Part shown: one piece after another, positions 149 through 6,258 of the stretch
Numbering within the stretch: position 1 is the first letter of the stretch
Layout: each line of letters begins with the position of its first letter
Assembly: GCA_016212295.1 (NCBI GenBank)
Contig: JACRGO010000198.1
Coordinates: forward strand, 1 to 6,401
DNA length: 6,401 nucleotides
Source of the DNA: Nitrospinota bacterium
GTDB lineage: Bacteria; Nitrospinota; Nitrospinia; JACRGO01
Direction of reading: 5' to 3'
Translations under genes and position numbers: made by a program
Notes under the pieces: generated by a model
The model's input: the letters and a program-made list of their open reading frames with translations, nothing else
The model's database searches: none
Told to the model about the DNA's origin: nothing

Positions 149-177
149 TTGACTATGGCGTATTATTTAAATATAAT
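149..177 (+). promoter_or_regulatory. strong sigma70-type promoter for the exported Gly-rich protein
   Basis: TTGACT at 149-154 (5 of 6 consensus) and a perfect TATAAT at 172-177 are separated by exactly 17 bp inside an AT-rich stretch. Predicted transcription start is near 184, giving a leader of about 45 nt before the ATG at 229. The promoter lies inside the longer open frame that begins at 109, which argues that the frame upstream of 229 is not translated. Confidence 0.8.
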
Positions 178-215
178 TTTAGCATCGTGCTGATTGTTGT
201 TTATCAACCTTTTTT

Positions 216-220
216 GGAGG
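216..220 (+). promoter_or_regulatory. Shine-Dalgarno GGAGG that fixes the start at 229
   Basis: GGAGG sits 8 nt before the ATG at 229, ideal spacing, and follows a run of six T (210-215). The ATG at 109 in the same frame precedes the promoter. The translation from 229 begins directly with a signal peptide, so 229 is the start. Confidence 0.85.
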
Positions 221-228
221 TGGAAAGT

Positions 229-1002
229 ATGGACAGGCGGCTTTTTATAACAAAGCTGGCGGCGATACCAGCCGGTCTGATGGCGCTTGGCTCAGGCGAA
301 GCCTTTGCGGCGACCGATACGACTGGAGCTACGGATACGACCACAAGCGGCGCTGGAGTTACTGTTTACGGAAACGTGGCCAGCAGATTTTCAAGGGCTC
401 CGGTCGCGGATGTAACAGTGACCGTACGCGATAGCGCCGGTGAACTGGGTTCAGCAAAAACGGACGCCAAGGGACTGTATAGTATTTCCGGCCTTAATCT
501 GAGCAGTGGGGACAAAATCAGGGTTGAATGCTCCGCTAAGGGAGCCAATGTCGTTCCCATACCCAAGGTCAGGAGCGACATGCTCATTGTCAATTTTGAC
601 AGCCAGGAAAAAGGGGACCCGGGCAACATGGGCGACCAGGGCAAGGGTAAAGGCGGAAAAGGTGGGGCCTCTGGAACAACTACCACTGATGGCGGCGGCA
701 AAGGCGGTGACATGGGCGGGAAGGATAAAGGAGGCGACCAAGGAAAAGGCAAAGGCGGCGACCAAGGAAAAGGCAAAGGCGGCGATATGGGTGGAGGCGA
801 CCAAGGAAAAGGCAAAGGCGGCGATATGGGTGGAAAGGATAAAGGCGGCACTGGCGGCAAAGATAGTGGTGGCGCAGGTGGCGGTTCAACGGGCGGCACG
901 ACCGGAGGGACTACTGGTGGAACGTCTGGTGGGACTACTGGCGGTTCAACTGGTGGGACTACTGGCGGTTCAACTGGTGGAACTACAGGCGGCATGCAGT
1001 AA
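229..1002 (+). CDS. Exported Gly-rich repeat protein with Tat-like signal and carboxypeptidase-regulatory-like domain
   Basis: The product is 257 residues. Residues 1-27 form a signal peptide with a twin-arginine-like motif (DRRLFITK), a modest hydrophobic core and a likely cleavage after EAFA. A Thr-rich linker (28-42) follows. Residues 43-125 look like one carboxypeptidase-regulatory-like / Cna-B-like beta-sandwich, with the typical pattern G-N-V...APVADVTVTVRD...TDAKGLYSISGL. The rest, about 128-255, is low complexity in two blocks: Gly/Lys/Asp/Gln-rich units such as GGDQGKGK, then GG(S/T)T units. There is one Cys (101) and no LPXTG, C-terminal helix or lipobox, so release to periplasm or surroundings is inferred rather than anchoring. 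The gene has its own strong promoter and Shine-Dalgarno and appears monocistronic. Beta-sandwich domains of this type occur in adhesins and extracellular proteins. A matrix, adhesive or surface-coating role is only inference, and I cannot name a known family for the whole protein. Confidence 0.85.
   Translation: MDRRLFITKLAAIPAGLMALGSGEAFAATDTTGATDTTTSGAGVTVYGNVASRFSRAPVADVTVTVRDSAGELGSAKTDAKGLYSISGLNLSSGDKIRVECSAKGANVVPIPKVRSDMLIVNFDSQEKGDPGNMGDQGKGKGGKGGASGTTTTDGGGKGGDMGGKDKGGDQGKGKGGDQGKGKGGDMGGGDQGKGKGGDMGGKDKGGTGGKDSGGAGGGSTGGTTGGTTGGTSGGTTGGSTGGTTGGSTGGTTGGMQ
730..849 (+). repeat. in-frame 18-24 bp tandem repeat encoding GGDQGKGK / GGDMGG units
   Basis: Within the Gly-rich coding region a 24-bp unit occurs at 730-753 and 754-777 with one base difference. 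A 21-bp version lies at 796-816, identical over its length. An 18-bp unit encoding GGDMGG is identical at 778-795 and 817-834. All lengths are multiples of three, so gain or loss of units keeps the frame. The encoded segment alternates Lys with Asp and is a charged, flexible Gly-rich polymer. Confidence 0.9.
880..993 (+). repeat. nine 12-bp tandem units encoding GG(S/T)T, with a perfect 24-bp duplication
   Basis: Nine consecutive 12-bp units (880-987) encode Gly-Gly followed by two Ser/Thr, ending with an extra Gly-Gly before Met-Gln-stop. Bases 928-951 and 952-975 are identical 24-bp blocks, each made of two 12-bp units, which suggests a recent duplication by replication slippage. Earlier units differ at synonymous positions and are older. 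Every length is a multiple of three. Confidence 0.9.
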
Positions 1003-2701: not shown

Positions 2702-2752
2702 TGAATAGTTGTATTAAATTTGCATATTTAACATATTGAAAAATAAGTGTTC

Positions 2753-4033
2753 ATGAACTATACAAACGCATTGGAATTTCTTTATGCCCAGAAGAGTCTC
2801 GGCATCCGGCCGGGACTCCAGGCTGTTCGCGACCTTTTGGGGCGATTGGGAAATCCCCATGAAAAGTTCAAATCAGTTCTCATTGGAGGGACAAACGGCA
2901 AGGGGTCTGTTTCAGCTTATCTCCACTCAATTCTCGTGGAATCAGGGTACAAGGCCGGGTTGTGCACTTCCCCGCATTTTCTGGATTTCAGGGAAAGGAT
3001 CAGACTGAACCGGGACATAATACCAGAGAAGGAAGTGGTGGAAGCGGTGGAAAGGGCCAGGTCGGTCTCTTCGGATATTCGCCCCACTTTTTTTGAGCTG
3101 TCCACAGTATTGGCCATGCTTTACTTCGCCAAGGCGGAGGTGGACATTGCCGTGATGGAGGTGGGAATGGGTGGCAGATGGGACGCCACGAACGTTCTTG
3201 ATCCAACGATTTCCATCCTCACTCCCATAGACCTTGACCACACGGATTTCCTTGGTGACTCCTTGGAGAAGATAGCAGGTGAGAAGGCCGGGATCATACG
3301 GGAAGGCGGGCTGCTCCTTACCTCGGAGCAAGGGCCGGAGGCATTGGAGGTCCTGAGAAAAACCTGCGCGGAGCGAAAGGCGGAGATATGGGAAATAAGC
3401 CGAATTTTTGACGCGGAGGTATTTTCCATGAACTTGACCGGCTCAATGTTCAATTTAGCCTTTAATAATCGAAGGTTAGAGGGGATAAAAATACCTCTTG
3501 CCGGAAGCCATCAGATAAAAAACGCCACTCTATCAATTGCCGCGGCTGAGAGGCTGCGTGGAATGGGTTTTACCGGAATCACGGACCAAGGCATTCTCAG
3601 TGGATTGGAAAAGACTGTTTGGAGGGGTAGATTGGAGACCGTTTCGGCAGCTCCCAAGGTGGTTTTGGACGTGGCCCATAATCCATCAGCGGCGAGGGTC
3701 CTTGTTTCAGAGTTGCGTGAACTATTTGAATTTTCTAAGTTGATTTTCGTTGTGGGGATAATGGCCAATAAAGATATCCCTTTAATAATCAATGAATTAG
3801 CCAAGGTTTCCGACGAAGCCATAGCGGTTTGGCCAAATACTGAAAGGGCGTCTGAGCCTGAAAAAATAGTCAATTGTTTCCTGGAAAGGGGGATTCATGC
3901 TATAGAGATCAGGAATGTCGGGGAAGCGATTTTGGAAGCTAAAAAAAAGGCCGGGAGGGACGGACTGGTGTGCGTTACCGGCTCGTTTTTCACGGTGGCT
4001 GAGGCTTATCTGGCCCTGGGAATCAGGGCATAA
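2753..4033 (+). CDS. folC: FolC, folylpolyglutamate synthase / dihydrofolate synthase
   Basis: The product is 426 residues, the usual length, and adds glutamate to folates (and, in bifunctional members, to dihydropteroate) using ATP in the cytoplasm. Mur-ligase-family motifs are in order: P-loop GGTNGKGS (45-52), TSPHF (72-76) with ERI (81-83), EVGMGGRWDATN (136-147), DHTDFLG (162-168), GEKAGIIR (176-183) with the probable carbamylated Lys178, LAGSHQIKNA (249-258), WRGRLE (290-295), DVAHNP (306-311) and VTGSF near 408-412. Nothing essential is missing. Whether it has both activities cannot be told by eye. An in-frame GTG lies two codons upstream (2747); I prefer the ATG at 2753 because the protein aligns from there. 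The Shine-Dalgarno is very weak (TAAG at 2744-2747). No convincing promoter is seen; TTGTTA (2690) with TATTAA (2712), 16 bp apart, is a weak candidate. lptD follows 56 bp downstream without a terminator, so cotranscription is likely. Confidence 0.95.
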   Translation: MNYTNALEFLYAQKSLGIRPGLQAVRDLLGRLGNPHEKFKSVLIGGTNGKGSVSAYLHSILVESGYKAGLCTSPHFLDFRERIRLNRDIIPEKEVVEAVERARSVSSDIRPTFFELSTVLAMLYFAKAEVDIAVMEVGMGGRWDATNVLDPTISILTPIDLDHTDFLGDSLEKIAGEKAGIIREGGLLLTSEQGPEALEVLRKTCAERKAEIWEISRIFDAEVFSMNLTGSMFNLAFNNRRLEGIKIPLAGSHQIKNATLSIAAAERLRGMGFTGITDQGILSGLEKTVWRGRLETVSAAPKVVLDVAHNPSAARVLVSELRELFEFSKLIFVVGIMANKDIPLIINELAKVSDEAIAVWPNTERASEPEKIVNCFLERGIHAIEIRNVGEAILEAKKKAGRDGLVCVTGSFFTVAEAYLALGIRA

Positions 4034-4083: not shown

Positions 4084-4089
4084 ATTTTG

Positions 4090-6258
4090 ATGAAAAAACT
4101 ATTTTTTATCGCCTCCCTGATATGTATCTGGTCCCTGGGACTTTGCCCCTGGTCATGGGCCGAAGTGAAGAAAGTGGAGATGAAGGGGAAAAAGACCGCC
4201 GCTGCGAAGAAGGACGGCCCTGAACTCGTCAATATTATGGCGGATAAAATGGAGCAAATCAAAGGTGAGAACAAGATCATCGGAATCGGGCATGTCAAGA
4301 TCAAATACGAGGAGATGCGGGTCGCGGCGGACCGGATAGAATTAAACACCGAAACCGGCCTTGGCTCAGCCAGGGGAAACGTTGTAATCATCGACGAACC
4401 CAACGGACACAAGATCCATTGCAACTACATGCTTTTCAATACCCGCGGCAAACAGGCCACCCTTTACAACAGCCAGGGGAAGGTCGCCAAGGATTTCTAC
4501 TTTAACGGGAAGAAGGTGGAACGTAAATCGGAAAAGCATTATGTAATTTCAAAGGGCGATGTCACCTCCTGTCTTGGGAACAATCCCGTTTGGAAGTTCA
4601 AATGCTCGAAAGCGGACGCCCACGTGGGTGAATACGCCTTTCTTCACGATCCCACCTTCCTGATCAAGGACATTCCCTTCTTTTATCTGCCTTACGGCTA
4701 TGTGCCATTGGACACGGAAAGGCAGACTGGAATCCTGATTCCGCTCTTCGGGAACAGCGATACGGACGGGCATTTTCTCAATAACGCGTTCTTTTGGGCC
4801 ATCAACGATCAATGGGACGCCACACTGGGCCTGGATTACCTGTCCAAACGGGGAATCAGGCCCACGGGCGAGGTCCGGTATTTTACCTCTCCAACTACCA
4901 GGGGACGATGGTACGCGGACTATCTGAAGGACCGCGAGACGGACGAGGCCTTTTGGAAGATACTTGTGGACCACCAGGAGACCTTTCCCTATGAAGTAGA
5001 AATGAACGCGAAAGTGGAGTGGCTGGAGGGGGCGGATTACGATAAGATTTATTCCGACTCAGTCCAGCAAAGGACCAGAAGGGAGACTGATAATTTTCTC
5101 AGCGTTACCAAGAACTGGGAAAGCAGGTCCTTGTTCCTTGAAACGCGCTACCATAAAAGCCTGGAAAGCTTCAGCAGGAATGAATCCGGGACGCTGCCGG
5201 AATTGCTGTTCGTGAACCAAATGGAGCAAATCGGGAAAACGCCTTTTTTTTTCGATATGAACGCGTCTTACTCCAATTTCGCGAATAAGGACAAACCCGG
5301 CTCAGCGGTGGAGTTCACCCAAAGGGGGGACATCCACCCGCAGTTATCATTGCCTATCAATAAGTGGCCATGGTTGACAATCACCCCAAGGGCAGGGGTG
5401 AGGGAAACCGTCTATGACCACGGTAAAAAAGTGGGGAAAACCACTTACGATGATCCCCTTTACCGCACGGTATATAATTTCGACACAATACTGGAAGGTC
5501 CTTCATTTTCAAGGACCTTTCTTCCCAATGACGGCGATGGGCCTGCTTTTAAACATCTCATAGAACCCAGAATAACCCACACTTACATTCCGGACATGGG
5601 AGACGTCCGCAAGAAGATAAGCGTAAACGATGGGATTGATCTCATCCGGGAGACCAATATGGTCAATTATTCGCTTACGAACCGGCTGTTTGAAAAAATC
5701 ACGGCTGGGGAGTCCTTTTACACCGAGGAAGTCGTGCGGTTCGATATCAGCCAGTCTTATGACATCCTCGCGGCGGAAAGAGGGCCTGGGATCAGGCCAT
5801 TTTCGGATGTCCGGTTCGATTTCGAGAGCCGTCCATCGCGGAAGCTTATGTTCAATTTTGATTCAACAGTCGACGTTTACGATCATTTGATCTCCACTCT
5901 CAATATTGAAACGGTGTTTAAGCCTTGGGATAATTTTGGTTTTTATGTGGAAAGGCGGTACACCAAGGATTTTTCAACGGACCTCATAGGGACGTTCCGT
6001 TGGAAGTTTCTCCCCAAATGGGAACTTGATCTCAGCACCAGGTATGACGAAACCGAGATGCAGTTCAGGGAAAACGACGCCAGCCTCTTGTACCAGGCGC
6101 AGTGCTGGGGTTTCGGGCTTGACGTGATAAAGCGAACCAATTTTTTCCGGGGCCGGCAAATAGACGATACGCGGTTTTTATTCCAGGTTTCCTTGAAAGG
6201 TTTAGGTTCCTATGGCTCGAAAAAGGATGATGGAATGGCGCTACACAGGCGATTTTGA
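4090..6258 (+). CDS. lptD: LptD, outer-membrane LPS translocon barrel (OstA/Imp)
   Basis: The product is 722 residues, somewhat shorter than E. coli LptD (784). LptD with lipoprotein LptE inserts lipopolysaccharide into the outer leaflet. Residues 1-24 are a Sec signal peptide (MKKLFFIASL..., cleavage after SWA). A basic Lys/Ala linker spans about 27-43. The OstA/LptA-like beta-jellyroll spans about 46-140, with NIMADKMEQIKGENKIIGIG and ADRIELNTETG. The barrel begins near 175, with family signatures DIPFFYLPYGYVPLD (194-208) and RQTGILIPLFG (211-221), and runs to a terminal Phe as expected of Bam substrates. Cys are at 111, 161, 172 and 672 after the signal; 161/172 and 672 sit where the N-terminal-to-barrel disulfides form in E. 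coli. An in-frame TTG precedes the ATG by one codon (4087). There is no Shine-Dalgarno. It lies 56 bp after folC and is probably in the same transcript. Confidence 0.95.
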   Translation: MKKLFFIASLICIWSLGLCPWSWAEVKKVEMKGKKTAAAKKDGPELVNIMADKMEQIKGENKIIGIGHVKIKYEEMRVAADRIELNTETGLGSARGNVVIIDEPNGHKIHCNYMLFNTRGKQATLYNSQGKVAKDFYFNGKKVERKSEKHYVISKGDVTSCLGNNPVWKFKCSKADAHVGEYAFLHDPTFLIKDIPFFYLPYGYVPLDTERQTGILIPLFGNSDTDGHFLNNAFFWAINDQWDATLGLDYLSKRGIRPTGEVRYFTSPTTRGRWYADYLKDRETDEAFWKILVDHQETFPYEVEMNAKVEWLEGADYDKIYSDSVQQRTRRETDNFLSVTKNWESRSLFLETRYHKSLESFSRNESGTLPELLFVNQMEQIGKTPFFFDMNASYSNFANKDKPGSAVEFTQRGDIHPQLSLPINKWPWLTITPRAGVRETVYDHGKKVGKTTYDDPLYRTVYNFDTILEGPSFSRTFLPNDGDGPAFKHLIEPRITHTYIPDMGDVRKKISVNDGIDLIRETNMVNYSLTNRLFEKITAGESFYTEEVVRFDISQSYDILAAERGPGIRPFSDVRFDFESRPSRKLMFNFDSTVDVYDHLISTLNIETVFKPWDNFGFYVERRYTKDFSTDLIGTFRWKFLPKWELDLSTRYDETEMQFRENDASLLYQAQCWGFGLDVIKRTNFFRGRQIDDTRFLFQVSLKGLGSYGSKKDDGMALHRRF

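Follow-up and report, generated by a model that had tools for sequence, protein, structure and literature searches.

The open reading frame at positions 229..1002 (+) of the DNA analysed here (6,401 bases, hereafter the window) is confirmed, by comparison with a diverged paralogue in the same genome, as a real gene encoding a small exported protein of 257 amino acids, a putative substrate of the Tat system. In this protein, a conserved Tat-type signal is followed by a predicted prealbumin/CnaB-like beta-sandwich domain and by a variable, predicted-disordered Gly-rich tail; these features, as well as the reality of the gene and its restriction to a single lineage among the genomes searched, are given by computation. 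All of the parts are known from elsewhere; what appears, from the searches reported below, to be lineage-specific is that they occur together in a single exported protein of small size. On balance, we favour the view that this is probably a Tat-exported small envelope or extracellular protein, in which the sandwich would serve as a binding or assembly module and the disordered tail as a spacer or matrix-forming segment.

The gene and its genomic setting

The gene runs from the ATG at 229 to the TAA at 1000-1002. A Shine-Dalgarno region with GGAGGT (215..222, +) can be read from the sequence 6-8 bases before the ATG, and a sigma-70-like promoter, TTGACT-17-TATAAT (149..177, +), which matches 11 of the 12 consensus positions, precedes the ATG by 51 bases and lies inside unique sequence and just past the insertion sequence-like end at 137. 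The paralogue (L002, C153:300-1022, – strand) encodes 240 amino acids. When the codons of signal, linker and domain are aligned, the two genes differ at 38, 41 and 82 of 128 first, second and third codon positions, respectively, with a dN of 0.10 against a dS of 2.06 in the signal and of 0.44 against 2.14 in the domain, dS being saturated. This codon-position pattern, together with a dN far below dS, points to purifying selection on the protein-coding frame, and for this reason the open reading frame is not a product of chance. A proline-rich open reading frame on the reverse strand (366-995) was rejected as a mirror image, or by-product, of the Gly repeats.

The remainder of the window has ordinary content. 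Downstream of the gene there are a tRNA-Met (1068-1144), followed by a strong terminator-like site (1154-1181), a gene for a membrane protein of the BrkB/YihY family (1200-2645, –), folC (2747-4033, +) and lptD (4087-6258, +), the last of which indicates a cell with an LPS-type outer membrane, i.e., a Gram-negative one. A short direct repeat, CAAATTACAAATAG, present in 1.9 copies at 2611-2637, is found between brkB and folC. The contig, of 6401 bases, is one of the 237 that make up a 3.74-Mb assembly with a completeness of 90.5%.

The first 137 bases of the window are the terminal part of a repeat present in many copies, which is probably an insertion sequence and at which the assembly is broken. 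Of the 26 matches to this repeat end in the assembly, 22 cover its full length at 100% identity, and many are located at contig ends; its last open frame ends with ...RSARLVFDYLRMTKNSCTLNGV. Both paralogues adjoin this same repeat end, and a link with a mobile element was considered and rejected, since the repeat end occurs at 26 places, its flanks differ among the copies compared, and it is oriented opposite to both genes.

A conserved twin-arginine-type signal

Residues 1-27 (229..309, +) form a twin-arginine-type signal peptide, MDRRLFITKLAAIPAGLMALGSGEAFA, in which an RR-x-F-I motif is accompanied by a core of moderate hydrophobicity and an A-x-A site. Tat signals are defined by an S-R-R-x-F-L-K-like motif, a moderately hydrophobic H-region and an A-x-A site (PMC6708511), and all three can be recognised by sequence in the 257-residue protein: the motif reads D-RR-L-F-I-T-K, with RRLFIT at residues 3-8, the 13-residue hydropathy means lie between 0.8 and 1.7, and the A-x-A site (AFA) occupies residues 25-27, cleavage being predicted after it. 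The genome also encodes TatC, side by side with a TatA/B-type protein on C45, and another protein of the TatA/B type on C180.

Signal peptides usually drift faster than the mature protein that follows them. Here the signal is, unusually, the best-conserved part of the protein, which suggests a constraint on the export route: 22 of its 27 residues are identical in the paralogue, the codons differing at 3, 1 and 16 first, second and third positions, and RRLFIT is unchanged although synonymous sites are saturated. The same first eight residues, MDRRLFIT, open an 84-residue protein encoded elsewhere in the genome (L029:1522-1776, –), a putative Tat lipoprotein whose MDRRLFIT...G.MTFG signal is 55% identical over 22 residues; it differs in its lipobox-like GISC end and has neither beta-sandwich nor Gly tail. 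Taken together, the features of the signal, the TatC and TatA/B genes and the related signal of this small protein make it likely, at the level of sequence, that Tat is used by the 257-residue protein. The Tat-like signal proposed in the first-pass annotation was thus borne out by the near-identical signal of the paralogue and by the TatC and two TatA/B genes; positive evidence for the cofactor or partner that, on that reading, was perhaps bound during export did not emerge.

The beta-sandwich domain and the Gly-rich tail

A Thr/Asp/Ala-rich linker (residues 28-42; 310..354, +), little conserved in the paralogue (3 of 16 aligned residues), leads to the prealbumin/CnaB-like beta-sandwich (residues 43-128; 355..612, +), in which 40 of 85 residues are identical between the two proteins. 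A single-sequence AlphaFold2 model, built with no alignment, folds residues 39-129 into a seven-stranded sandwich (mean pLDDT 75, pTM 0.68) with the seven strands and two sheets by which the prealbumin-like/CnaB fold is recognised. The top Foldseek matches were CnaB2, pilin CnaB, SdrD B and dioxygenase sandwich domains, none with an E-value below 0.001. When these were re-aligned with VIA-align, Z was 8.9 for CnaB2 (8bdw_A, 80 residues, 2.5 A), 8.8 for a UafA domain, 8.5 for SdrD B (10ps, 85 residues, 2.8 A, 25% identity), 8.4-8.5 for carboxypeptidase D domains and about 8 for transthyretin; the top matches span 75-88 of the 91 residues, and a Z of about 8-9 is only moderately above background for so common a fold. 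With a profile made from the two sequences, SdrD ranks first among PDB sequences (E 0.0013).

Family models are less generous. No Pfam match to CarboxypepD_reg (PF13620/PF13715) is found at E ≤ 0.1, bMG3 is matched below threshold (E 2e-4, 21.7 bits vs a cut-off of 34.9), and the matches to NCBIfam PaeY (E 0.0057, 15.3 bits vs a cut-off of 1000) and to PTS-HPr were dismissed as chance-level. The single beta-sandwich expected by the first-pass annotation, which had called for a structure prediction of this region, is therefore recovered in the seven-stranded model and its structural matches, and the carboxypeptidase-regulatory-like character claimed for it holds at the level of fold but not at that of family, no Pfam cut-off having been reached. 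In CnaB isopeptide domains, a first-strand Lys is joined to a last-strand Asn by way of an acidic residue; the window protein has no such strand-A Lys, its first strand reading VTVYGNVAS. Cys 101 is kept in the paralogue. The fold is common and in itself carries no functional information, and the structural matches are mostly to non-catalytic structural or binding domains.

The tail comprises the last 129 residues of the protein (129-257), 63 of which are Gly (49%), with 15 Lys and 12 Asp. Its first 87 residues (129-215; 613..873, +) are polyampholytic Gly-Lys-Asp-Gln repeats, encoded by 24-bp and 39-bp tandem repeats, in which Lys and Asp are nearly balanced (fraction charged 0.31, net about 0.03 per residue), and its last 42 (216-257; 874..999, +) are mostly GGTT/GGST repeats, encoded in part by a 24-bp tandem array at 907-992. 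This is the succession of polyampholyte and GGTT segments that had been noticed at first reading. The DNA repeats of the tail (39 bp × 2 at 100%, 24 bp × 2.5 at 97% and 24 bp × 3.6) show recent tandem duplication. The tail is predicted to be without secondary structure, by a single-sequence model that is weak evidence when taken alone for a low-complexity stretch, and it ends in ...GGTTGGMQ, with no hydrophobic segment and no C-terminal sorting motif or anchor of the LPXTG, PEP-CTERM, GlyGly-CTERM or similar types.

The paralogue shares the signal, the domain, a KDSGG block and the Gly-rich character of the tail, but its linker is longer, its domain has three Cys rather than one, and its tail is built of TTTDTGG repeats with a Lys/Asp end. 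This tail is acidic, with a net negative charge, whereas that of the window protein is near neutral, and it stops at the shared KDSGG block plus GKD, so that the GGTT/GGST part is missing. From this comparison, signal and domain are under purifying selection, and the tail is kept only as a Gly-rich low-complexity class plus the KDSGG block.

The closest known systems are of two kinds. Like the CnaB, SdrD B-like and CarboxypepD_reg (transthyretin-like, prealbumin-like) domains, the window protein has a seven-stranded beta-sandwich with a TDxxGxYxxxGL turn; unlike them, it reaches no Pfam cut-off of the group, lacks the strand-A Lys, and has one domain instead of a stalk of repeats. The MSCRAMM-type adhesins, such as SdrD, in which B domains precede an SD-repeat stalk, resemble it in the order of a prealbumin-like domain and a low-complexity, repetitive, hydrophilic segment, but the window protein has no ligand-binding A region and no LPXTG or other anchor, carries a Tat-type signal and belongs to a Gram-negative cell.

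Export route, possible role and distribution

In the explanation that we favour, the twin-arginine signal would direct the folded 9-kDa beta-sandwich, together with its tail, through TatABC, and signal peptidase I would cleave after AFA-27 to leave a mature form that is soluble and has a mass of about 21 kDa. The prealbumin/CnaB-like domain would then pack or bind, with a role in binding or assembly and no enzymatic one, the disordered tail of 129 residues would form a hydrophilic, hydrated spacer or matrix-forming segment, and the protein would reside in the periplasm or, after a further export step, outside the cell. The use of Tat, the cleavage, the location and the binding or matrix role are what we infer from the computed features. 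The exported matrix, adhesin or surface-polymer role put forward at first reading is possible for this putative product; since it lacks both a C-terminal anchor and a sorting signal, a surface role would require an additional outer-membrane route.

It is rather unlikely, in our judgement, that the protein never leaves the envelope and is instead a periplasmic or inner-membrane-held accessory protein, whose tail is a flexible filler or tether in the periplasm. Tat does deliver into the periplasm, no recognised outer-membrane secretion signal was found in the 257 residues, and no complete GspD, the type II secretin, was found in the 90.5%-complete assembly. Moreover, both genes are near envelope-biogenesis genes: the window gene shares its contig with lptD, and the paralogue ends a cluster (L031:300-8273) that can be read from its translations as bamA-skp-lpxD-fabZ-lpxA-gfo/idh, devoted to outer-membrane biogenesis. 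This neighbourhood, however, is not conserved, a same-genus genome being without the gene at both places, and an obvious periplasmic role is lacking for a Gly-rich tail of 129 residues.

The tail also bears on the route. According to a review (PMC6708511), Tat exported unstructured FG-repeat passengers of 100-120 residues and a 110-residue unstructured linker, whereas it rejected an scFv because of its unstructured tail; the 129-residue tail is at the limit of the unstructured length that Tat is reported to tolerate, and the finding is most useful as a natural test of how long a disordered tail Tat will accept. Sec and Tat signals overlap, a long disordered tail fits Sec better than Tat, and that scFv is one unstructured-tail substrate which Tat did not accept, so that export could be by Sec with an incidental arginine pair. 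We consider this quite unlikely in view of the exact retention of RRLFIT in the paralogue at saturated synonymous sites, the moderate hydrophobicity of the signal and the presence of Tat genes in the genome. A secreted scavenging or biomineral protein, binding metal ions or minerals through the many Asp, Lys and Thr of a tail that is K/D-rich in the window protein and D/T-rich in the paralogue, is very improbable: the window tail has no His, Cys or Glu clusters and a net charge near zero, and no homologue has such a function.

Returning to Tat export, a broader proposal is tentative: the two proteins could represent a lineage-specific family of natural Tat substrates, each with one small folded domain and a disordered tail of about 100-130 residues, which would be exported with the domain folded and the tail disordered and would serve outside the cell as matrix or spacer protein. 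Tails of this size would equal or exceed what Tat has been reported to tolerate in unstructured passengers. Should Tat export prove real, the two paralogues would be naturally occurring substrates with which to test how Tat controls folding quality, since in each a small folded domain carries some 100-130 residues of hydrophilic, disordered tail; should it not, they would illustrate the fast origin and divergence of exported low-complexity proteins.

Beyond generic weak matches, no relatives outside the species were found among 60 related genomes, nor in any of the 76 genomes besides this one by which the phylum, as a single class, is represented in the collection. Plasmids, phages and PHROGs likewise gave no relative, and GTDB and viral contigs gave none to short, strict peptide patterns, which could miss distant relatives. 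In the one same-genus genome, BrkB is 62% identical, the gene is absent at the places corresponding to both the window locus and the paralogue locus, and a purB-like gene follows gfo/idh where the paralogue sits here. On these sequence searches, the family appears to consist of two paralogues, confined to this species within the set of genomes examined, and the lack of relatives suggests that it is recent, fast-diverging or lost elsewhere. The family foreseen by the first-pass annotation, with a common signal and domain and a variable Gly tail, does exist, but it amounts to just two paralogues in one genome; as had been thought, no named family for the combination was present in the libraries searched, and no Pfam family of the group reaches its cut-off. 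A search of titles and abstracts on Tat together with Gly-rich or CarboxypepD_reg proteins returned no matching protein.

Elsewhere in this genome, CarboxypepD_reg, BACON or Fn3-associated domains are connected by GGS/GGT linkers, and these, with the GGTTGG spacers of a Cys-rich repeat protein, suggest that Gly-Thr/Ser spacers are a habit of the lineage. Two related exported proteins (L003:2-754 and L005:131-1837) have a CarboxypepD_reg-like N-terminus, a GGS/GGT linker and a BACON domain, the second extending into chitobiase C-terminal/Fn3-associated repeats. A long open reading frame (L004, G000:C93), which resembles that of a large protein either exported or exposed at the surface, carries Cys-rich units of the form C..YxTMATCNxMxGCxWDxxxNxC between GGTTGG spacers, and these repeats come after a chitobiase-like YYTTDG domain.
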